Part shown: positions 1 to 30,411 of the stretch, in pieces
Numbering within the stretch: position 1 is the first letter of the stretch
How the letters are laid out: every line of letters starts with the position of its first letter
Virus record (IMG/VR): IMGVR_UViG_3300012666_000098
Coordinates: 1 to 30,411 of that record
Direction: 5' to 3' (one strand)
DNA from: a virus
DNA length: 30,411 nucleotides
Made by a program: the position numbers and the translations under genes
The notes under the pieces: generated by a model
Told to the model about the DNA's origin: nothing
The model's database searches: none
What the model saw: the letters and a program-made list of their open reading frames with translations, nothing else

Positions 1-59
1 GCCAATGGTTGTGTGGCGAACATTATCATGACGAAACATTTGGACGCGATGGAAACTAA
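1..59 (+). CDS. 3' end of a small phage protein (partial at window edge)
   Basis: Reading from base 3, the frame ends at a TAA at 57-59 and gives QWLCGEHYHDETFGRDGN. This is the same C-terminus as the complete gene at 29977-30213 (which ends in GRDGK), identical in DNA for the first 55 bases. It is therefore the tail of a second copy of that gene, or of the same gene if the molecule is circular. It overlaps the next gene by 11 bases if that gene starts at 49. No function is known to me. Confidence 0.75.
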   Translation, partial: QWLCGEHYHDETFGRDGN

Positions 60-435
60 AACAAAGGAATCAGCTGATTTCATGTCAAATGTTTATGACA
101 TTATCGAAAAATACAAATTGACGCGTAATGACCGACATCATGCGATTATTTACAAACGATATTATTTATATCATCAATTGCACATGGCGAAATTATCATT
201 GTCACACATTGGATTGTTGTTTAATAAAGACCATGCAACCGTCATCAATGGATTGAAAAAACATAAATTGTATACAAAATCAAATGATGCAGTTTATTTG
301 CATCACGTTCAACCCGTAATTGATGACCTGGATCACAAACCACAACCACGATTTTTGATTGATGATATCATGAATTGCGAATCGATGGATGAATTGTTGA
401 TAATAAAAACAAACATCAAAAGGAATCTTTATTAA
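49..435 (+). CDS. Stand-alone DnaA domain IV-like DNA-binding protein
   Basis: A small protein of about 128 residues. Its middle (LSLSHIGLLFNKDHATVIN, encoded near 193-249) resembles the helix-turn-helix and signature of the DnaA C-terminal DNA-binding domain, where the pattern is roughly 'sl.eIG..f..RDHtTV..a'. No AAA+ domain is present, so it could bind DnaA-box-like DNA but not act as a full initiator. The second half (ending KTNIKRNLY) is not recognised. Start choice: GTG at 13, ATG at 28 and ATG at 49 are in frame. I prefer 49 because the two copies in this window first diverge just after it and it gives the short overlap typical of this genome. A diverged partial copy lies at 30203-30411. 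Its position just before the replication genes suggests a role in origin recognition or host DnaA interference; this is inference. Confidence 0.7.
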   Translation: METKTKESADFMSNVYDIIEKYKLTRNDRHHAIIYKRYYLYHQLHMAKLSLSHIGLLFNKDHATVINGLKKHKLYTKSNDAVYLHHVQPVIDDLDHKPQPRFLIDDIMNCESMDELLIIKTNIKRNLY

Positions 436-440
436 ATTAG

Positions 441-535
441 CGGTGTTCGCTCTCACAATATAGAACACATGGCATTATTGCCCCTTTATTTGACACGCGA
501 TGTGAGAGCCGCGCCGATAATGAAGGGGTTTTTTT
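441..535 (+). ncRNA. Candidate structured RNA / attenuator with interlocking stems and U-tract
   Basis: The 119-base gap between two genes holds a dense set of complementary segments: 443-448 with 463-468 (6 bp hairpin); the loop segment 449-457 with 501-509 (9 bp, perfect); 473-480 with 515-522 (8 bp including one G-U); and 481-486 with 523-528 (6 bp, CCCCTT/AAGGGG) followed directly by seven T (529-535). The last three pairings interleave (A-B-C then A'-B'-C'), so they form pseudoknots or are mutually exclusive. The 3' GGGG plus T-tract places it on the + strand and suggests a terminator arm. It does not match any RNA family I can name with confidence. Confidence 0.5.
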
Positions 536-554
536 ATGCACTAAAATCAAACAA

Positions 555-1307
555 ATGGCAACCAATAAAAAATCGTTTCTTTTGTATGTGGATTTGATTC
601 ACACAATCGAAAAATTGCCCGATGAATATGCGGGGAAATTATTTAAACACCTTTTGGAATACGTCAATGACCGCGATCCGGTCACCGATGACATCGTTGT
701 CAACATCGCATTTGAACCAATCAAACAATCGTTGAAACGTGATTTGGTGCGATGGGATGAAACCAGGGAAAAGCGAAGCAAGGCGGGAAAAATGTCAGCT
801 GAAAAACGCAACAAAAATGAACACATGTTAACACATGTTGAAAGTGTTGAACACATGTTAACACATGTTGATTTTGTTGAACACAATTCAACAAACGTCA
901 ACAAACGTCAACACACGTCAACAAATCCAACTGATAGTGTTAATGTTAATGTTAATGTAATAAATAACAATATAGATGATGTCGATGTCAAGACAATCGA
1001 CCATATCGATTTCGATTCCCTTTTGAAATTAATCAATGATACATTCAAACGTAATTTTCGCACCATCAATTCAAAGAACCGAACCGCGTTCATGGCACGA
1101 TTGAAACAAGGATATCGGAAGGATGATATTGCGACCGCCATTGTGAATTGCAAATCGAACGAATATCACATCAATACGGCATATCGATATTGCACACCCG
1201 AATTTTTTTCACGGGCGGATGTGTTGGATAAATATTCCGCGGTGACGGTTCCCGATAAAAACACGAACAAACCAAATGCTAAAAATGTGCCATGTTGGAA
1301 TCGATAA
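555..1307 (+). CDS. Replication-initiation-like protein (DUF6291-type N-terminus)
   Basis: A 250-residue protein. The N-terminal ~85 residues (FLLYVDLIHTIEKLPDEYAG, then acidic and basic helices and KRSKAGKMSAEK) match my memory of the DUF6291 domain found in Bacteroidota phage replication regions. The middle (about residues 88-137) is low complexity and Asn/His/Thr/Val rich because it is encoded by a repeat array (see 819-930). The C-terminal ~100 residues resemble a helical DnaD/RepO-like tail ending YRYCTPEFFSRADVLDKY, as in phage replisome organisers. Initiator genes with the origin inside them are known from lambda O, and the array fits that model. It overlaps the next gene (ATPase) by 16 bases. 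Role as origin binder or helicase loader is inferred. Confidence 0.6.
   Translation: MATNKKSFLLYVDLIHTIEKLPDEYAGKLFKHLLEYVNDRDPVTDDIVVNIAFEPIKQSLKRDLVRWDETREKRSKAGKMSAEKRNKNEHMLTHVESVEHMLTHVDFVEHNSTNVNKRQHTSTNPTDSVNVNVNVINNNIDDVDVKTIDHIDFDSLLKLINDTFKRNFRTINSKNRTAFMARLKQGYRKDDIATAIVNCKSNEYHINTAYRYCTPEFFSRADVLDKYSAVTVPDKNTNKPNAKNVPCWNR
819..930 (+). repeat. 10-bp-phased direct repeat array inside the replication gene (candidate iterons)
   Basis: From 821 the sequence falls into consecutive 10-mers: ACACATGTTA, ACACATGTTG, AAAGTGTTGA, then the same three again with 3 changes (30-bp units 821-850 and 851-880), then ACACAATTCA, ACAAACGTCA twice, ACACACGTCA and ACAAATCCAA. The period is one DNA helical turn, and 10 is not a multiple of 3, so the regularity is at DNA rather than protein level. 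It resembles an iteron origin. Confidence 0.75.
936..975 (+). other. AT-rich segment next to the repeat array (candidate unwinding element)
   Basis: Directly after the array come three GTTAAT repeats and an AT-rich run (938-975), still inside the same reading frame as VNVNVNVINNN. An iteron array followed by an AT-rich stretch is the layout of lambdoid origins located in the initiator gene. This is inference from arrangement only. Confidence 0.4.
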
Positions 1308-2290
1308 AGGGATTCAAGGTCACATCCGCATCGGATGTATTGAACAAATTGCAATCGTATCGAACAACGTATCATGACAAAGGGAAATATTTGGGATTTC
1401 CTTCCATCAACAACCATTATTCGATGCAATTGGGGAACGTCACCGATTGGACGGGGTATCCAATTTCGGGCAAAACACAATTTTTGATGGAAATGTTGAT
1501 GAACACATCGGTGATGTACGGATGGCGGCATTTGATATATTTTCCCGATGTTGGTTCAAATGTGGAAATCATTGCCGATTTGATTCACAAAAAAACGGGC
1601 AAATCATTTGATCCAGGTTCACCGAATCATATCAGCGAAAAGGAAATATTTTCGACATTGGATTGGATTACACACCATTTTTTGGTATTGACCAAACATG
1701 ATGTCAAGGCGAAAATGACACCGATGGATTTTTGGGACATGGCGGTCAAAATCAAAAACGATTCTGGATTGGAAACCGCATCAATCGATTCATGGAAGGA
1801 TTTGAATCATCCGTATAATGAACATGGGGGATACGCACAATATTTGGAAATGGTGTTGCCATATCGAAATGCGATTGCGGAAAATAACGACCTACATTTG
1901 CACACCATCATTCACCCTAAATTGACCGAAAAGGAAAATGGCAAAAGGAAACCGCCCGTCCCATACGATTTAAAAGGGGGTTCGGAATGGTTCAATTCGG
2001 GCAAATGTATGATTACAATTGACCGCCCCGATTTTGAAACCAATGAGGTTGATATTTATTTCAACAAAATCAAACCGCGATCCATTGGAAACATCGGACA
2101 AATTACGATGCGATACGATGTTGATGCGGGACGATATTACGAATCAAATGACATCCACGGAATTGAACATCGTCATTATGCGGATGAAAAAAAAGAACCC
2201 ATCACAACAAAAAATATTTATGGCGGTGTTCCATGGAATGCCACAACGGATGATGACGAATTCAAACCAATCAATGACGTACCATTTTAA
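1292..2290 (+). CDS. DnaB/Twinkle-like RecA-fold replicative ATPase with SSB-like C-terminal tip
   Basis: A 332-residue protein with a Walker A motif GYPISGKT (residues 55-62) in a context (LGNVTDWTGYPISGKTQFL) typical of DnaB/Twinkle-type helicases. The following helix-strand (GWRHLIYFPDVGSN) matches their H1a region, and the late segment IIHPKLTEKENG ... KIKPRSIGNIGQ resembles the Walker B to arginine-finger part of this group. It is shorter than full DnaB (about 450) and has no primase or N-terminal domain, so it is a RecA-core-only helicase or a related recombination ATPase. The C-terminus is acidic and ends DVPF, like the SSB tip. It probably unwinds DNA at the phage fork. ATG 1292 overlaps the upstream gene; the next gene starts after an 11-base gap. 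Confidence 0.7.
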   Translation: MLESIKGFKVTSASDVLNKLQSYRTTYHDKGKYLGFPSINNHYSMQLGNVTDWTGYPISGKTQFLMEMLMNTSVMYGWRHLIYFPDVGSNVEIIADLIHKKTGKSFDPGSPNHISEKEIFSTLDWITHHFLVLTKHDVKAKMTPMDFWDMAVKIKNDSGLETASIDSWKDLNHPYNEHGGYAQYLEMVLPYRNAIAENNDLHLHTIIHPKLTEKENGKRKPPVPYDLKGGSEWFNSGKCMITIDRPDFETNEVDIYFNKIKPRSIGNIGQITMRYDVDAGRYYESNDIHGIEHRHYADEKKEPITTKNIYGGVPWNATTDDDEFKPINDVPF

Positions 2291-3693: not shown

Positions 3694-4263
3694 ATGAAAA
3701 GAAAAGGAATCAGTCAAACGACAATTGCGCGATACATGGCGGCATTTATCGAAATCAAGGCGGCATTGGATGCAAATCCAAAAGCGAACACAACACCCAT
3801 TGCGCGTGAATTCAAAATTGGGGCGCATCCCATCACGTTTTTGAAAAAATTGGGTGTCATTGAACACGCAAAAGGCGGTCACAAAAAATGGGTTGGAAAC
3901 AATCCCAATGTTGCAATGGTCATTCAGATTGCCGAAGCGGTTCACAATTATCATGCTGAATTGCGTTCACGCAAATCAAAGGGGGAAATGTTCACCAAAA
4001 CAAAGAAACGTCCGCAAATCGCACCAATTGCCGTTGAAAAGGAATCACACAACGCATGGAAGGAATCATTCGGCAAACAAATCGCGGAAAAATCGGATGT
4101 GTTGATCCAGGAACAACCATTTGACCAATCGTTGGTGTCCGAATTTATTCAACACGATGAAAAAATCCAGGTTAAACACGGCGAAATTGAATCATCAAAG
4201 CCAAAACCGCGCACATTTGAGGTCAAAATATTTGGCATCCGTTTATTTACAATTAATTATTAA
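3694..4263 (+). CDS. Putative helix-turn-helix protein with conserved hydrophobic C-terminal tail
   Basis: A 189-residue protein. The N-terminal ~60 residues (TIARYMAAFIEIKAALDANP, TTPIAREFKIGAHPITFLKK) look like a helix-turn-helix: helix, turn around G-A-H-P, recognition helix. The centre is Lys/Glu/Gln rich and probably disordered. The C-terminus EVKIFGIRLFTINY is hydrophobic and resembles the short terminal motif (in the style of SxFWGLIKINY) that I recall on many Bacteroidota phage early proteins; that is memory, not a search. It lies upstream of the ERF, exonuclease and SSB genes, so a regulator or adaptor for the recombination cluster is plausible. Confidence 0.55.
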   Translation: MKRKGISQTTIARYMAAFIEIKAALDANPKANTTPIAREFKIGAHPITFLKKLGVIEHAKGGHKKWVGNNPNVAMVIQIAEAVHNYHAELRSRKSKGEMFTKTKKRPQIAPIAVEKESHNAWKESFGKQIAEKSDVLIQEQPFDQSLVSEFIQHDEKIQVKHGEIESSKPKPRTFEVKIFGIRLFTINY

Positions 4264-4284
4264 TCAAACAAACATCAAAACATC

Positions 4285-4827
4285 ATGCAAGATATCAATT
4301 CAGAATTATTGAAAGCAATGGCGCAATTTCAATACGAATGCCCCATCATCCACAAAACAACAAAGGGATACGGCTATTCTTATGCGGATTTGCCCACAAT
4401 CATCGAAAAAATCACACCGATTTTGAAAAAAAATGAATTAGGATTCACCCAATTGGTCAACGGGCAAACCATCACAACGATTGTTTTTCATTTCCCAACG
4501 GGGGGACGCATCATGTCAACCACGGATATCATCGGCGGATTGGATTTCAAGGGGATGAATGCATTGCAATCGTTCGGATCACAACTTTCATACATGCGCC
4601 GTTACGCATTGACATCCATTTTGGGTATTGTATCTGATTCAGACACCGATGGTCAAGGACAACCGAAGAAAAAAGCTGAAAAGCCAATGGAAAAAACATT
4701 GAACGACCAACAATTCATCCGCGCCATTTCAGCGGTTCAAAATGGGACATTGGACGCGAACAAATTAAAAGGTGATTTTAAATTAACCGAATCACAATTG
4801 GCAACATTGGGTGAAATAAATGATTAA
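4285..4827 (+). CDS. erf: ERF-family single-strand annealing protein
   Basis: A 180-residue protein of the ERF superfamily. The N-terminus (LLKAMAQFQYECPIIHKTTK, YGYSYADLPTIIEKITPILK) and the central signature MNALQSFGSQLSYMRRYALT followed by SILGIVSDSDTDGQ are diagnostic; ERF proteins carry a 'QaiGSaiTYaRRYaL' motif and a following DxDG. The C-terminal part (after residue ~130) is a variable linker and small helical domain. ERF proteins anneal complementary strands during phage recombination and circularisation. The adjacent exonuclease and SSB-like genes complete the usual recombination trio. It starts after the leader CAAACATCAAAACATC. Confidence 0.9.
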   Translation: MQDINSELLKAMAQFQYECPIIHKTTKGYGYSYADLPTIIEKITPILKKNELGFTQLVNGQTITTIVFHFPTGGRIMSTTDIIGGLDFKGMNALQSFGSQLSYMRRYALTSILGIVSDSDTDGQGQPKKKAEKPMEKTLNDQQFIRAISAVQNGTLDANKLKGDFKLTESQLATLGEIND

Positions 4828-4868: not shown

Positions 4869-5579
4869 ATGACGCATCAATTTATCGCGAGGGCATCGCA
4901 AATGGGGGATTTAATGACAAATCCCCGTTCAAAATCTGAATTACTTTCAGAAACCGCAAAAAAATCCGTTCAAAAATCCGTGTTGTTTGACAAATATGGC
5001 ATCACCGATGACATTTCAAGCAAACCAATCGACAAAGGGATTCAATTAGAACCAGAAGGGATTGACACCGCATCACGCGTGTTGGGTTGGTTCGATGTTG
5101 AACCGACAAAAAAACGGATGATTAACGAATTTTTCACGGGTGAACCCGATGTGTTGACACAAACATTGTTGGCGGATATCAAGTGTTCCTATTCGGGTTT
5201 GACATTCCCATGGTTCGCGGATGAAATCCCAACGGCGGGATATTTTTTTCAATTGCAGGTTTACATGGAATTATCGGGACACCGAACATCCGAATTGGTT
5301 TATGTATTATTGGACACACCCGAACAAATGGTGTTGGATGAAATCAATCGGAAGGTGTGGAAAATGTTGCCCGATCCGCGATTTGCAAATCACGACCAAA
5401 GCGAAATCGAATTAATTGCCGATGAGGAAATCCGCCGAATGCATAATTTCGGACACATAGCAATTGAAAAACGGGTGAAAAAATTCGTTGTCGATTATGA
5501 TGCGGATGTCATCCAGGCAATGCAACAACGGGTGACGTTATGCCGCGAATATTACGATGCAATTTACAATACAATTTAA
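4869..5579 (+). CDS. YqaJ/lambda Exo-like PD-(D/E)XK exonuclease
   Basis: A protein of about 236 residues. The active site is visible as G-E-P-D (residues 91-94) and D-I-K (103-105) in EFFTGEPDVL...LADIKCSYSG, with a downstream Gln-rich helix FQLQVYMELSG, all as in YqaJ/lambda Exo/RecE-type exonucleases. The upstream QLEPEGID could supply the helix-A Glu. Such enzymes degrade one strand at ends and load an annealase, here the ERF protein encoded directly upstream. Start: ATG 4869 follows the leader AAAACATCAAAACATC; the in-frame TTG at 4839 overlaps the -7 box and is unlikely. The C-terminal ~70 residues are helical. Confidence 0.82.
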   Translation: MTHQFIARASQMGDLMTNPRSKSELLSETAKKSVQKSVLFDKYGITDDISSKPIDKGIQLEPEGIDTASRVLGWFDVEPTKKRMINEFFTGEPDVLTQTLLADIKCSYSGLTFPWFADEIPTAGYFFQLQVYMELSGHRTSELVYVLLDTPEQMVLDEINRKVWKMLPDPRFANHDQSEIELIADEEIRRMHNFGHIAIEKRVKKFVVDYDADVIQAMQQRVTLCREYYDAIYNTI

Positions 5580-5599
5580 CAATCAAATAAACAAATCAA

Positions 5600-7716: not shown

Positions 7717-8001
7717 TTGAAACCGCGCCCGTTGATTCAACCGTTGCCATGGCAATTGACGGGCGCACAAAACGATTTAAACATGACAAAAAAACGATTC
7801 AAAATTGCATTGGGAATGGCATTGTTGCCAATATTCACAATCATTTATTTCATAGACCGCGCAATCCTGGTTTCATTACCATGGATTGAACAAAAGACAA
7901 TCAAAAAATGGTTTGATGACATCCCATTGATGGTGTATTCATTTACACGCGTATCGGTTGGATGCATCCTTTGGGTGATTTATCAATTGATATTCGGTTA
8001 A
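7717..8001 (+). CDS. Small two-helix membrane protein
   Basis: The frame opens with TTG 7717 (KPRPLIQPLPWQLTGAQNDL) and has an internal ATG at 7783 (MTKKRFKIAL). Codon use upstream of 7783 matches the genome, so I keep the longer 94-residue form. Two hydrophobic segments, around IALGMALLPIFTIIYFI and SVGCILWVIYQLIFG, are separated by a short polar loop, giving a membrane hairpin. It lies far from the lysis genes, among early genes, so an inner-membrane or superinfection function is conceivable. No family recognised. Confidence 0.55.
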   Translation: MKPRPLIQPLPWQLTGAQNDLNMTKKRFKIALGMALLPIFTIIYFIDRAILVSLPWIEQKTIKKWFDDIPLMVYSFTRVSVGCILWVIYQLIFG

Positions 8002-8899: not shown

Positions 8900-10247
8900 A
8901 CGGGAAATCATTCGCGAATTGTTGCGAATTGAATTGTGCAAAAGGTCATTTTGGCATTTTTGTTTGTATTATGACGAACAATTTTATACCGAACGACCAT
9001 TTTTGAAGGATGTCGCGGATGGATTTCAAGCCATCGAGGATAAAAAAATCAAATCATTATCGGTATCCATGCCCCCACGCGCGGGTAAAAGTTACATTAC
9101 GTCGTTATTTTGTGCATGGACAATTGGTCGCAACCCGTCAAAATCCGTGATGCGCAACACATGCACCGCGACATTGTATCTTAAATTTTCGTATGACGTT
9201 CGCGCCATCGTGAAAAACGACCGATTTAAACGTGTGTTCGCCGATGTCCAATTGTCAGATGATAAAGCAAATTTACAAGGTTGGAACACCAATCATGCAA
9301 AAATGGTATCGTATTTTGGTGCGGGTGTTGGGGGAACAATCATCGGGTTCGGTGCGTCCAATGTCGCAATCACGGATGACCTTTATCGCGGCATCGAGGA
9401 TGCGTTGTCGGACACGGTTAACGACCGAATAATCCAATGGAAGGAATCAACACACGATTCACGATTCGAATCGGGATGTTCACGCATCGACATTGGGACA
9501 CGTTGGTCATTGAATGATGTCATTGGTCGCAACATGGGGCAAAATCAATACGAACAATCAGTCATCGTTCCCGCCCTGGATCACAACGATGTGTCATTTT
9601 GTGATGCCGTCATGACATCGGATGAATATAAAATCAAACGATTACGCACCGCAAACGAAATATGGTTGGCGGAATATCAGCAACAACCCGTTGACATGAA
9701 AGGACGTTTGTTCGCCGATTTACAATTCATTGACAAATCAGAATTCGAAGCAATGACGGCAACCAATCCCATCGAAGGAACGATTGCATACATTGATGTT
9801 AGCGACCAGGGTACGGATTACACCGCCATGGCAATATGTGCCATCATTAAAAACACACCATTCGTTGTTGATTATGTGTTCACCCGTGACAACACCGATG
9901 TGACATTGCCAATGTGCGCGGAAAAATTAACACGATGGAACGTCACATATTGCCGCGTTGAATCGAACAACATGGGTGCAATGTTCGCCCGTCAATTGCA
10001 AACATTGACCAAAACACGGATATTGCAAGTCAACAACACAACGAACAAAATCACCCGGATCATCATGCAATCCGCATTCATCATGCACACCTTGCAATTC
10101 GTTAAAAATGGGGACAATCATTCGGAATTATTCATCCAAAATGTGTTGTCATTTAGCAAGGAAGGCAAGAACAAAAACGATGATGCGCCCGATTGTATCG
10201 CGGGGTTGTCAATTTTTATGGTATCAATGTTCAAAAATTTGCATTAA
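8874..10247 (+). CDS. terL: Terminase large subunit (packaging ATPase/nuclease)
   Basis: 457 residues from ATG 8874 (TTG 8859 would add five residues). Walker A is MPPRAGKS (about residues 66-73). Walker B is VAITDD (164-169), followed by a DALSD segment as usual. The C-terminal nuclease shows the RNase H-like acid residues in IAYIDVSDQGTDYTAM (Asp308, Asp315), a central Glu (RVESNN, 363) and the late Asp in DDAPD (440). Length and order match siphophage TerL. It packages DNA into the prohead and cuts concatemers. Portal follows 27 bases downstream. Confidence 0.93.
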   Translation: MIQEQTTNKREIIRELLRIELCKRSFWHFCLYYDEQFYTERPFLKDVADGFQAIEDKKIKSLSVSMPPRAGKSYITSLFCAWTIGRNPSKSVMRNTCTATLYLKFSYDVRAIVKNDRFKRVFADVQLSDDKANLQGWNTNHAKMVSYFGAGVGGTIIGFGASNVAITDDLYRGIEDALSDTVNDRIIQWKESTHDSRFESGCSRIDIGTRWSLNDVIGRNMGQNQYEQSVIVPALDHNDVSFCDAVMTSDEYKIKRLRTANEIWLAEYQQQPVDMKGRLFADLQFIDKSEFEAMTATNPIEGTIAYIDVSDQGTDYTAMAICAIIKNTPFVVDYVFTRDNTDVTLPMCAEKLTRWNVTYCRVESNNMGAMFARQLQTLTKTRILQVNNTTNKITRIIMQSAFIMHTLQFVKNGDNHSELFIQNVLSFSKEGKNKNDDAPDCIAGLSIFMVSMFKNLH

Positions 10248-12487: not shown

Positions 12488-13687
12488 ATGGAAAATACAT
12501 TGACACCAGAACAAGTTGTGGAAAAATTAAACACAATGTTCACTGAAAAAATGGAAGGAACGGCAACGAAAAGTGACGTTAACGACCTAAAAAATGAAGT
12601 TGAATCTTTGAAGGGATTGAACGAAAAAAGCGCGGAAATCGAAAAGGCAATCGCACGATTCGAAGGACGTTTGGAATCAATGGGTGAAAAGGCAGTAAAC
12701 AACGCACCAAAAAAATTGCAAACATTGGCGGGTGCATTTGCTGAAAAGCATTCCGATATCCTTGATTCAGTACAAAAAGGGCAAACATTCAATTTGAATG
12801 TTAAAGCAATGGGGGACACATCGATTGTTGATTCATACACGGGAAATGTTGCATTGTCAACGTTGGAATTGGGCATTGACCGCGTTCAACGACCAATCAT
12901 CAAGGTTCGAAACGTTGTGAATAGCGGAACAACAACATCAAAATATGTTGTTTACATCACACAAACAAACGCAATTGGTGCTGATTGGACGGGTGAAACA
13001 ATCGAAAAAACTTTGTTTTCCCCAACATACGAAGAGGTATCCGAAGAGGTTAAAAAGGTAGCGGGAACAATCAAAATTTCAAAGGAAATGTTGTCTGATT
13101 TGGCATTCATCCAATCAGAAATCAACACGGATTTGATGGAAGCAATCGCATCACAAATCGAAGATTCATTAATCAATGGCGCGGGTGGTTCGGAAATTAA
13201 CGGATTGATTGGATACGCACAAACATTTGCGGCGGGTTCATTCGCGGGTTCAATTCCTTTGGCAAATGAAACGGATGTGATCCGTGTTGCAATTGCACAA
13301 ATCCAATCGGCTAATTTCGAACCAACGCATGTTGTTTTGAATCCAAATGATGTTGCAAAAATGCAATTGACAAAAACCAATACGGGCGAATATACATATC
13401 CGATGTTCCTGGTTGATTCAAATGGTGTTCAAACGGTTGCAACATTACCAATCATTTCAACAACAAATATCGCCGCGGGTGATTTCCTTGTTGGTGACAT
13501 GACGAAATCAAATGTTCGTGTTCGTGAGGATGTTAACATGCAAGTTGGATATGTGAATGATGATTTTCAACGTAATATGGTGACCATTTTGGCGGAAGCG
13601 CGTTTGGTTCATTATGTGAAAGCAAATCAAGTGTTCGCATTTGTGACGGGTGATTTCACAACCGCAAAGGCGGCAATCAACGACTAA
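12488..13687 (+). CDS. HK97-fold major capsid protein
   Basis: A 399-residue protein. The first ~100 residues form a coiled delta domain (VNDLKNEVESLKGLNEKSAE, IEKAIARFEGRLESM) that the adjacent protease likely removes. The rest matches the HK97 capsid fold: STLELGIDRVQRPIIKVRNV, ADWTGETIEK, EVKKVAGTIKISKEMLSDLA, long helix (LMEAIASQIEDSLINGAGGS), THVVLNPNDVAKMQLTKTN and a terminal LAEARLVHYVKANQVF strand. It forms the icosahedral head. Val is often gtt and Gly ggt, more than in neighbours, as in strongly expressed genes. A terminator-like hairpin lies 12 bases after the stop. Confidence 0.93.
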   Translation: MENTLTPEQVVEKLNTMFTEKMEGTATKSDVNDLKNEVESLKGLNEKSAEIEKAIARFEGRLESMGEKAVNNAPKKLQTLAGAFAEKHSDILDSVQKGQTFNLNVKAMGDTSIVDSYTGNVALSTLELGIDRVQRPIIKVRNVVNSGTTTSKYVVYITQTNAIGADWTGETIEKTLFSPTYEEVSEEVKKVAGTIKISKEMLSDLAFIQSEINTDLMEAIASQIEDSLINGAGGSEINGLIGYAQTFAAGSFAGSIPLANETDVIRVAIAQIQSANFEPTHVVLNPNDVAKMQLTKTNTGEYTYPMFLVDSNGVQTVATLPIISTTNIAAGDFLVGDMTKSNVRVREDVNMQVGYVNDDFQRNMVTILAEARLVHYVKANQVFAFVTGDFTTAKAAIND

Positions 13688-14050: not shown

Positions 14051-14803
14051 ATGTATTATTTGACACCGAACGATTTTAATGGGAAATTTGCATTGCATAC
14101 GGGAATGTATGCGAACGCAACGATCCAGGATTACATTGACCGATACGAACCTTTGTACATGATGCAGTTGTTCGGTGCTAAAATGTACGATGAATATGTT
14201 GGGGATATGGGAATTTTAAACATCCCAATTTCACCAAATTTTCAATATTTGTTCAATCCCTTCCATGAAAATATTGCATTCAACACATTGATTGTGTCGA
14301 ATGGGTTGATTGACATGCTGAAAGGATTCGTTTATTTTGAGTATTGCAAAGATTTAACGAACCAAATGACCATCAACGGGAATGTACGTCCAACGGGCGA
14401 AAATTCGGCGGATGTGTCCACGTTGTATTCAATGATGTATGCACGATACAATGAATCAATTCGCACATATCGCGCAATTCAACGACACATCGTCAATAAT
14501 TTCAACGCACCAACGGGGCAAATTGTAAGCGCATCAATCACAAATCAAGGTTCGGGATATGTTGACGCGCAAAATGTCATCGTCACGGGCGGTTCCGGAT
14601 CGGGTGCATTGGTTTCAATAAATGAAACGGGCGGCGCAATTGATACGGCATATTTCACCAACAAGGGAATCAATTATCAAATTGGTGATGTGTTGACCAT
14701 TACGGGCGGAAATGATGACGCGATATTGGTCGTTGATTTAATCGGGATTGGCAATTACAACAATTTTTCGGGTGTTCATAAACAATTCAATTATTGGATA
14801 TGA
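14051..14803 (+). CDS. Head-tail connector protein with inserted beta module
   Basis: A 250-residue protein. Residues 1-150 (MYYLTPNDFNGKFALHTGMY, QDYIDRYEPLYMMQLFGAKM, NGLIDMLKGFVYFEYCKD) are helical and look like the connector/adaptor (gp6-like, DUF6712-like) seen after the capsid in Bacteroidota phages. Residues about 155-234 (QGSGYVDAQNVIVTGGSGSG and TNKGINYQIGDVLTITGGND) form two copies of a GSGY...VTGGSGSGA / GDVLTI beta motif common in phage tail and decoration proteins, inserted before the last conserved residues. It lies 3 bases after the previous gene and its stop overlaps the next start (ATGA). Confidence 0.65.
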   Translation: MYYLTPNDFNGKFALHTGMYANATIQDYIDRYEPLYMMQLFGAKMYDEYVGDMGILNIPISPNFQYLFNPFHENIAFNTLIVSNGLIDMLKGFVYFEYCKDLTNQMTINGNVRPTGENSADVSTLYSMMYARYNESIRTYRAIQRHIVNNFNAPTGQIVSASITNQGSGYVDAQNVIVTGGSGSGALVSINETGGAIDTAYFTNKGINYQIGDVLTITGGNDDAILVVDLIGIGNYNNFSGVHKQFNYWI

Positions 14804-29980: not shown

Positions 29981-30213
29981 AACCAAAGGAAAAAAAGCAA
30001 TCATCCATAGAATGGTTGATGAATGAGGTATCGGGAATCAATGAGAATTCCGAAATAATGAAACAAGCAAAACAAAAACACAAGGATGAAATATCAGACG
30101 CATGGGAATCGGGATACGATGACGGATTTAGCGAAGGACAATGGACAAAATCCCGCCAATGGTTGTGTGGCGAACATTATCATGACGAAACATTTGGACG
30201 CGATGGAAAATGA
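29977..30213 (+). CDS. Small early protein of a Bacteroidota phage family (78 aa)
   Basis: Starts at ATG 29977 (ATGA overlap; leader AACATCATG). The product contains IMKQAKQKHKDEISDAWESG, YDDGFSEG and a final GEHYHDETFGRDG. The pattern 'A-K-x-x-h-K-x-e-I ... a-x-x-x-G ... e-q-Y-Y-n-e-T-Y/F-G' resembles a small protein family I recall from Bacteroidota phages and mobile elements, with unknown function. The C-terminal coding part is repeated exactly at 1-55 of the window. Confidence 0.65.
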   Translation: MKPKEKKQSSIEWLMNEVSGINENSEIMKQAKQKHKDEISDAWESGYDDGFSEGQWTKSRQWLCGEHYHDETFGRDGK

Positions 30214-30411
30214 AACAAACGAATCAAACGATTTCATGTCAAATGTTTATGACATCATCGAAAAATACAAATTGACACGGCGCGACCGCCATCAATCAAT
30301 CATTTACAAACGATATTATTTGTATCATCAATTGCACATGGCGAAATTGTCATTGTCACACATTGGATTGCTATTCAATAAAGACCATGCAACCGTCATT
30401 CACGGGATTAA
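30203..30411 (+). CDS. Second, diverged DnaA domain IV-like gene (partial at window edge)
   Basis: Starts at ATG 30203 (GTG 30167 and ATG 30182 are also in frame) and runs off the end. The product (MENETNESNDFMSNVYDIIE, then KLSLSHIGLLFNKDHATVI) aligns without gaps to the protein at 49-435, differing at several residues (for example TRRDRHQSI against TRNDRHHAI). Many changes are synonymous. It is the same gene from another variant, or a true paralogue; see findings. Confidence 0.7.
   Translation, partial: MENETNESNDFMSNVYDIIEKYKLTRRDRHQSIIYKRYYLYHQLHMAKLSLSHIGLLFNKDHATVIHGI

Follow-up and report, generated by a model that had tools for sequence, protein, structure and literature searches.

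Structure of the Window RNA

The window analysed in this study is a stretch of 30,411 bases from one virus record (IMGVR_UViG_3300012666_000098), and its positions 441-535 raise the question of what kind of RNA this short interval could encode and what such an RNA could do ahead of a set of replication genes. The interval is placed between a gene for a DnaA domain IV-like helix-turn-helix protein (13..435; Pfam Bac_DnaA_C, E=2.6e-6, just under the curated cut-off) and a replication module. The gene directly downstream encodes a DUF6291/replication-initiation-like protein (555..1307), whose ATG lies 19 nt past the U-tract of the RNA, and is followed by a replicative helicase-like ATPase gene (1292..2290; PHROG 5482, E=2.7e-76, with matches also to DNA primase/helicase families). 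These three genes and the RNA are on the + strand, and NinG and Erf homologues come after the ATPase gene. An earlier note had described the interval as complementary segments in the order A-B-C-A'-B'-C', forming either a multi-pseudoknot or competing stems; its observation was partly confirmed and its interpretation partly supported, and the actual layout is that of two hairpins with kissing loops.

The first hairpin, H1, is closed by the arms GUGUUC (443..448) and GAACAC (463..468), and its loop consists of the first kissing strand, GCUCUCAC (449..456), and a 3' part, AAUAUA (457..462), lying in conserved alignment columns that read AUUAUA in the family. A single-stranded linker (469..480), with a family consensus ending in UUAUUNN, contains segment B of the earlier note and leads to the second hairpin, H2. 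This hairpin comprises an outer stem (481..490 paired with AAUGAAGGGG at 519..528), an internal loop with UGA(CA) on the 5' side (491..495) and (C)CGAU on the 3' side (514..518), and an inner stem of CGCG (496..499) with CGCG (510..513). The conserved family version of the internal loop, UGAA opposite GGAU, could be compatible with tandem sheared G.A pairs. In the apical loop, two free nucleotides are followed by the eight paired nucleotides of the second kissing strand, GUGAGAGC (502..509), and then by the stem. The outer stem is GC-based and stands directly before seven T (529..535), as in an intrinsic terminator or attenuator.

A standard terminator scan missed H2 in the window because it permits loops of 3-8 only, and no tRNA or tmRNA was found. 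Folding alone returned the hairpin 443-448/463-468 and a long H2 with 481-490/519-528 and 496-499/510-513. Single-sequence folding of the window RNA beat shuffles modestly (z -2.0 to -3.0), as expected, since the kissing helix is absent from the folding energy count.

Search for Related RNAs

With the ATPase as bait, 80 viral loci were collected. In one of them, the 93% identical locus L002, compensated differences affect the inner stem of H2, which reads UUGCA/UGCAA, as well as the kissing helix, and a descriptor scan found the same arrangement in dozens of the other bait loci. A covariance model was then seeded with five distant members of equal length, chosen because an alignment of all members by MAFFT was misregistered at stem ends; the seed excluded the window, and the model contained the two nested hairpins only. 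It found 54 members among the bait loci and matched window positions 439-533 at E=3.6e-8. The 8-bp loop-loop complementarity, which the model does not use, is present in the window (449-456/502-509).

An independent DNA pattern, in which ACATTATA, TTATT..CC.T, and GG.TTTTTT were fixed while H1, the inner stem, and six variable kissing positions were left free, matched at least 120 stretches in viral contigs. All of the 79 loci submitted from this set matched the covariance model, and a second covariance model added 41 further members in the remaining stretches. In total, the family amounts to at least 175 hits at a minimum of 172 loci, with at least 113 distinct sequences; some contigs recur across searches, so that the loci are not all independent phages. 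The carriers number well above a hundred phages of Flavobacterium-type bacteria. The full descriptor (H1, kissing helix, H2, and T-run), together with the promoter motif TAnnTTTG, gave 107 hits in the loci versus 1 in dinucleotide-shuffled copies, and zero shuffled hits at a score of 28 or more. The RNA structure and family membership are secure.

The suggestion that this layout belongs to no known family was borne out by Rfam 15, in which the window and ten relatives had no match at gathering cut-offs, and open thresholds returned no more than chance-level matches. Literature searches for kissing-loop RNAs of Bacteroidetes phages brought up no relevant description, and the family is apparently undescribed to date. 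A prophage or host origin was considered and rejected: among 84,980 bacterial genomes the pattern had one hit, in Pedobacter, which the covariance model fails to recognise, and 395 Bacteroidia genomes, searched without a positive control genome, gave zero matches. This near-absence from bacterial genomes suggests that the phages with this RNA do not usually integrate.

Covariation of the Helices

Four helices, namely H1, the kissing helix, and the outer and inner stems of H2, were supported by covariation. All pair counts were made on alignments to the models, which contain no kissing pairs. Across 26 pairs in 41 distinct sequences, 98.6% were paired and 23 pairs had changed on both sides, and no shuffled or slid control came near these values. 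Both arms of H1 covary at 5/5 modelled pairs, as do all four pairs of the inner stem. The kissing helix was 98.1% paired on the first model alignment, with 6/8 pairs covarying, and 99.8% paired in the pattern-collected set, where two of its positions are fixed by the pattern and hence uninformative. Likewise, AUUAUA is fixed by the pattern, and its conservation in that set proves nothing.

These results bear on the three complementarities of the earlier note, all of which exist in the window about where it had placed them, with only A/A' and C/C' conserved in the family. The first (449-457/501-509) has nine perfect pairs in the window, eight of which (449-456/502-509) are conserved and covarying as the loop-loop kissing helix; A457 is able to supply the ninth. 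C/C' (481-486/523-528), which had been read as a terminator stem, forms the base of the 10-bp stem 481-490/519-528 before the U-tract, with 98.4% of cells paired, 5/6 pairs changed on both sides, and 0/500 shuffles as high. The compensatory changes that the note had named as support in relatives are therefore present in both helices. By contrast, B/B' (473-480/515-522) is complementary in the window and was paired in 43.9% of cells across the family versus 42.1% in shuffles. It is also incompatible with the upper part of H2. Since B/B' is not conserved, the proposed competition, in which it would block the terminator stem, fails. A scan over every pair of columns in the family alignment yielded one plausible addition, an extra outer pair of the terminator stem, and no conserved alternative (antiterminator) helix, so that a classical two-state attenuator or riboswitch is not visible. 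What stands is a compact, pseudoknotted phage RNA that ends in a terminator ahead of a replication operon. That first description did not include H1 itself, the inner stem 496-499/510-513 with the second kissing loop on top, the promoter-like sequence (433-440), or the nearly constant distance of ~19 nt to the next start codon.

The pairs also differ in their composition. In the outer stem of H2, U.G pairs are frequent (151/846 cells), with the U on the 5' arm in a ratio of 127:24, which indicates that selection acts on the + strand RNA. Of 752 kissing cells, only 5 contain a wobble pair, so that this helix is nearly pure Watson-Crick. A DNA element, such as an origin hairpin or a site of recombination, or a plain terminator whose complementarities arose by chance, would fit a position next to the replication module and the iteron-like repeats in the downstream gene. 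However, the strand-biased U.G pairs, the four covarying helices, and a promoter at a fixed distance make this explanation highly improbable.

Promoter, Terminator, and Spacing to the Next Gene

Bacteroidetes promoters have TAnnTTTG as their -7 element. Of 107 distinct loci, 88 carry TATATTTG, of this type, at the same place 5' of H1, its end varying within about 3 bases, whereas 3.9% of random stretches contain the motif anywhere. The remaining loci mostly carry close variants, as does the window, in which TAAATTAG (433..440, + strand) has one mismatch to the motif and overlaps the stop of the upstream gene. On the opposite strand, no promoter was detected at the RNA by a sigma-70 scan, which covers the sigma-70 model only. 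At the other end, a T-run of 6-7 was present in 98/107 distinct loci, and the first downstream ATG that opens a reading frame of 30 or more codons stood at a median distance of 19 nt. This ATG lay 11-27 nt past the T-run in 98/106 cases, compared with 9% of 262 other terminator-like sites on the same contigs. The constant unit consists of a Bacteroidetes-type promoter, an RNA of ~92 nt that includes its own terminator, and an ATG ~19 nt further on. As the gap between terminator and gene is too short for another promoter, transcripts reaching the replication genes must cross the terminator, and this is the main argument for a role in cis. A standalone small RNA in a coincidental position is, in the strict sense, still conceivable.

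The reading that we favour, with a probability of roughly 55%, is that of a promoter-proximal leader RNA of ~92 nt that attenuates the operon behind it. Judged from the promoter position, transcription would start just 5' of H1, which would form first and expose its loop. H2 would then kiss this loop with its own apical loop over 8 bp, and the outer stem of H2 with the U-tract would act as an intrinsic terminator. Most transcripts should stop there and yield a compact, stable small RNA, and read-through would supply the replication genes starting ~19 nt on. From these sequence features we infer transcription, termination, regulation, and a controlling factor, as well as the release of the small RNA; the leader probably throttles the genes behind it. 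The kissing contact would couple the 5' hairpin to the terminator as a natural control point, so that whatever makes or breaks it could set the level of read-through. Candidates for this control are RNA polymerase, a phage protein bound to the conserved single-stranded parts, and a second copy of the RNA. Attenuation is disfavoured by the lack of a conserved alternative fold, by a few related phages without the RNA (L030 and L056), and by the mismatch in the promoter element of the window.

Genomic Position and Variant Backbones

The RNA usually heads the replication operon, also where it was found without a protein query. At such protein-free loci, the ATPase homologue, where detected, starts ~0.5-2.6 kb and NinG ~1.8-4.9 kb downstream, and a DnaA-like gene is often directly upstream. 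The earlier note had named as refuting the case in which relatives lack the arms and keep the flanking genes; this occurs in a few loci (L030 and L056, in which the next gene follows after 3 nt). The RNA is thus a self-contained cassette, which some phages lack.

The gene right behind the RNA swaps among several unrelated families with the RNA retained, which favours a cis-acting leader. The same observation bears on a further explanation, in which the folded RNA would be bound by a protein of the phage or the host, for autoregulation of a replication protein or for RNA capture, with the kissing helix only as a scaffold. The conserved unpaired AUUAUA, the linker UUAUU, and the UGAA/GGAU loop look like recognition surfaces; however, an autoregulating downstream protein is unlikely when that protein is exchanged between unrelated families and the RNA is kept, and some variants, among them those of L013, L045, and the cultured phage FCV-1, have no AUUAUA. 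A protein site as the main function is accordingly judged quite unlikely.

Several loci carry variant backbones, which were identified by eye and with the descriptor and not by the covariance model. For instance, L013, L014, and L065 have the same plan with the words GCGTGAGA/TCTCACGC and GCGTAGGA/TCCTACGC. A smaller variant occupies the same place in L045 (about 4245-4350) and L078, with fully paired 6-nt kissing loops (AGGCAG/CTGCCT), and the variants of L068 and L075 have GGTAGGA/TCCTACC and GGTCGGA/TCCGACC.

Relatives in Cultured Flavophages

A blastn search of cultured-phage and plasmid collections with a consensus member gave nothing meaningful, and relatives in cultured phages surfaced only via the covariance model and the descriptor. 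The variant hits in these phages came from a promoter-anchored descriptor, which had 25 hits in 1.5 Mb of shuffled control, and are also supported by position and by conservation across genera. Two contigs (L171 and L080) and three cultured flavophages (hattifnatt9-1, FCV-1, and snork6-1) hold two or three related RNAs with differing kissing words.

In L171, two RNAs lie 2.3 kb apart on the reverse strand (5501-5593 and 7873-7967), with the words CATCCTAC and GCTCTCAC; the first heads a different operon and the other heads the replication genes. By eye, the former operon consists of a 145-aa gene followed by PAPS-reductase-like and ParB-like genes. Phage hattifnatt9-1 (L209, NC_048832.1) has one clear member (9368-9463, E=1.7e-7, word GCTTCGAC) and two RNAs of variant type, with GTCGTCG near 13299 and GTGAGACG near 14349. 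The annotated start of its helicase gene gp34 (9441) lies inside the RNA (9358-9470), and the gene probably begins at the ATG directly past the terminator. In the study that isolated this phage, 38 phages were virulent and one, laban6-1, was temperate (PMC7077304).

Ficleduovirus FCV-1 (L206, FCV-1.01) has variants at 35781-35901 and 40253-40365, with the words GTAGTGC and GTAGAGAG, and FCL-2 (L207) has one variant (4470-4597, word CATCCAC) ahead of its replication genes. The kissing-hairpin leaders of these two Flavobacterium columnare phages are unannotated, and the position that corresponds in the two genomes is occupied by different variants. FCV-1 and hattifnatt9-1 share most of the variant backbone, whereas the word has changed on both sides. 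The shared architecture in these two cultured phages, as well as the copy in L171 ahead of a different operon, is consistent with the leader acting in cis.

Turnover of the Kissing Words

Among 94 RNAs, 32 kissing words were counted. When backbones differing by at most 4 bases were compared, pair changes on both sides occurred 8 times in the kissing helix versus once elsewhere, and the per-base difference in the same near-identical groups was 0.066-0.110 at kissing positions compared with 0.002-0.010 in the other stems. In L127 and L089, the kissing word is the sole difference. At larger distances, however, the other stems differ as much as the kissing helix or more. Taken together, the near and far comparisons are a strong hint, from few groups and short of a rate test, that the word turns over quickly, within limits.

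This pattern is what could be expected of a trans-acting phage small RNA whose loops also pair between molecules, the kissing word being an identity tag. Such a tag could give feedback on copy number or let related phages exclude each other, as happens in plasmid incompatibility and in P1/P7 c4 immunity. The concentration of double-sided changes in the kissing helix, the L127/L089 pair, the number of words, and the use of different words in multi-copy genomes all agree with such a function. However, intramolecular pairing should beat pairing in trans, differing words per genome are expected by chance given the word diversity, and the tight ATG spacing favours a role in cis. The phage flanks were also scanned for a second target of the word, which was rejected: in up to ~15 kb of flank, the phages' own words occurred as 8-mers 2 times in sense (3.2 expected) and 5 times in antisense (7.5 expected), a slight depletion rather than an enrichment. 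On balance, a trans-acting RNA is a tentative alternative with a limited chance of being correct. Control of the leader by other RNA copies would explain the fast words. A doubtful extension of the attenuating leader is a self-coded recognition RNA: since both halves of the kissing pair are in the leader, released copies would pair with nascent leaders of matching word and so determine their termination.

Comparison with Known RNAs

The phi29 packaging RNA has a kissing-loop sequence that covaries between phages, as in the leader RNA, but it pairs between subunits of the packaging ring, and its position, size, and fold differ. The P4 CI RNA, likened here alongside c4 of P1/P7, is a short phage RNA with loop recognition sequences. 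To our knowledge, lambda OOP RNA has no kissing structure, and we know of no other family in which a 5' hairpin kisses the apical loop of a terminator hairpin.

The attenuators of the pT181 type (PMC3753616) and ColE1-type control are similar in that loop-loop recognition takes place upstream of replication genes, a terminator decides read-through, and the loop sequence helps set specificity; there, an antisense transcript of the opposite strand supplies the partner, whereas here one transcript contains both loops. The c4 antisense RNA of P1/P7 (PMC12197685) is also a short phage RNA with loop recognition sequences and differing specificity types, although it pairs with separate targets, and no second target was found here in the phage flanks. 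Phages with the kissing leader, unlike those with c4 or the P4 RNA, do not appear as prophages in the bacterial genomes searched. Lambda OOP RNA (PMC12197685) is short and tied to the replication region as well, but is antisense to cII on the opposite strand.

HK022 putL is described as an RNA of ~70 nt with two stem-loops, located just past an early promoter, that needs no phage protein (PMC9378689). By that description, the two RNAs are alike as two-hairpin phage RNAs near an early promoter, and put acts on transcription in cis, its antitermination working through the beta' zinc-binding domain of RNA polymerase. The similar position and size could point to a put-like antiterminator here, in which the folded nascent RNA would bind RNA polymerase and carry it past its own and later terminators. 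However, put has no built-in terminator in the same account, which presents it as a V of two stem-loops and describes no loop-loop kissing, whereas the present RNA pairs its two loops and has as its second hairpin a terminator with a U-tract. Such antitermination is therefore considered unlikely.

The leader represents a widespread and sharply defined RNA family heading the flavophage replication operon that seems to have escaped description, even in sequenced cultured isolates. The compensated, fast switching of words opens replication timing and the separation of related control circuits to tests with phage-host pairs that already exist. Loops acting in trans would make the words a natural set of orthogonal transcription regulators; if self-recognition is true, the RNA would allow phage replication to sense copy number, and rapidly changing words would keep co-infecting phages, as well as several operons of one phage, independent.

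Repeats in the Window

Iteron-like direct repeats were observed at 818-919 of the window, within the replication-initiation-like gene. They comprise a 30-nt unit present twice, with ACACATGTTA/ACACATGTTG, and a 10-nt-spaced unit, AACAAACGTC, in three overlapping copies. By analogy with the origin inside lambda O, they are possibly the phage origin. In addition, the ends of the window (1-254 and 30155-30409) are mutual repeats with only 90% identity, which suggests that the genome may be circular or repeat-ended and the record a mixed-strain assembly.
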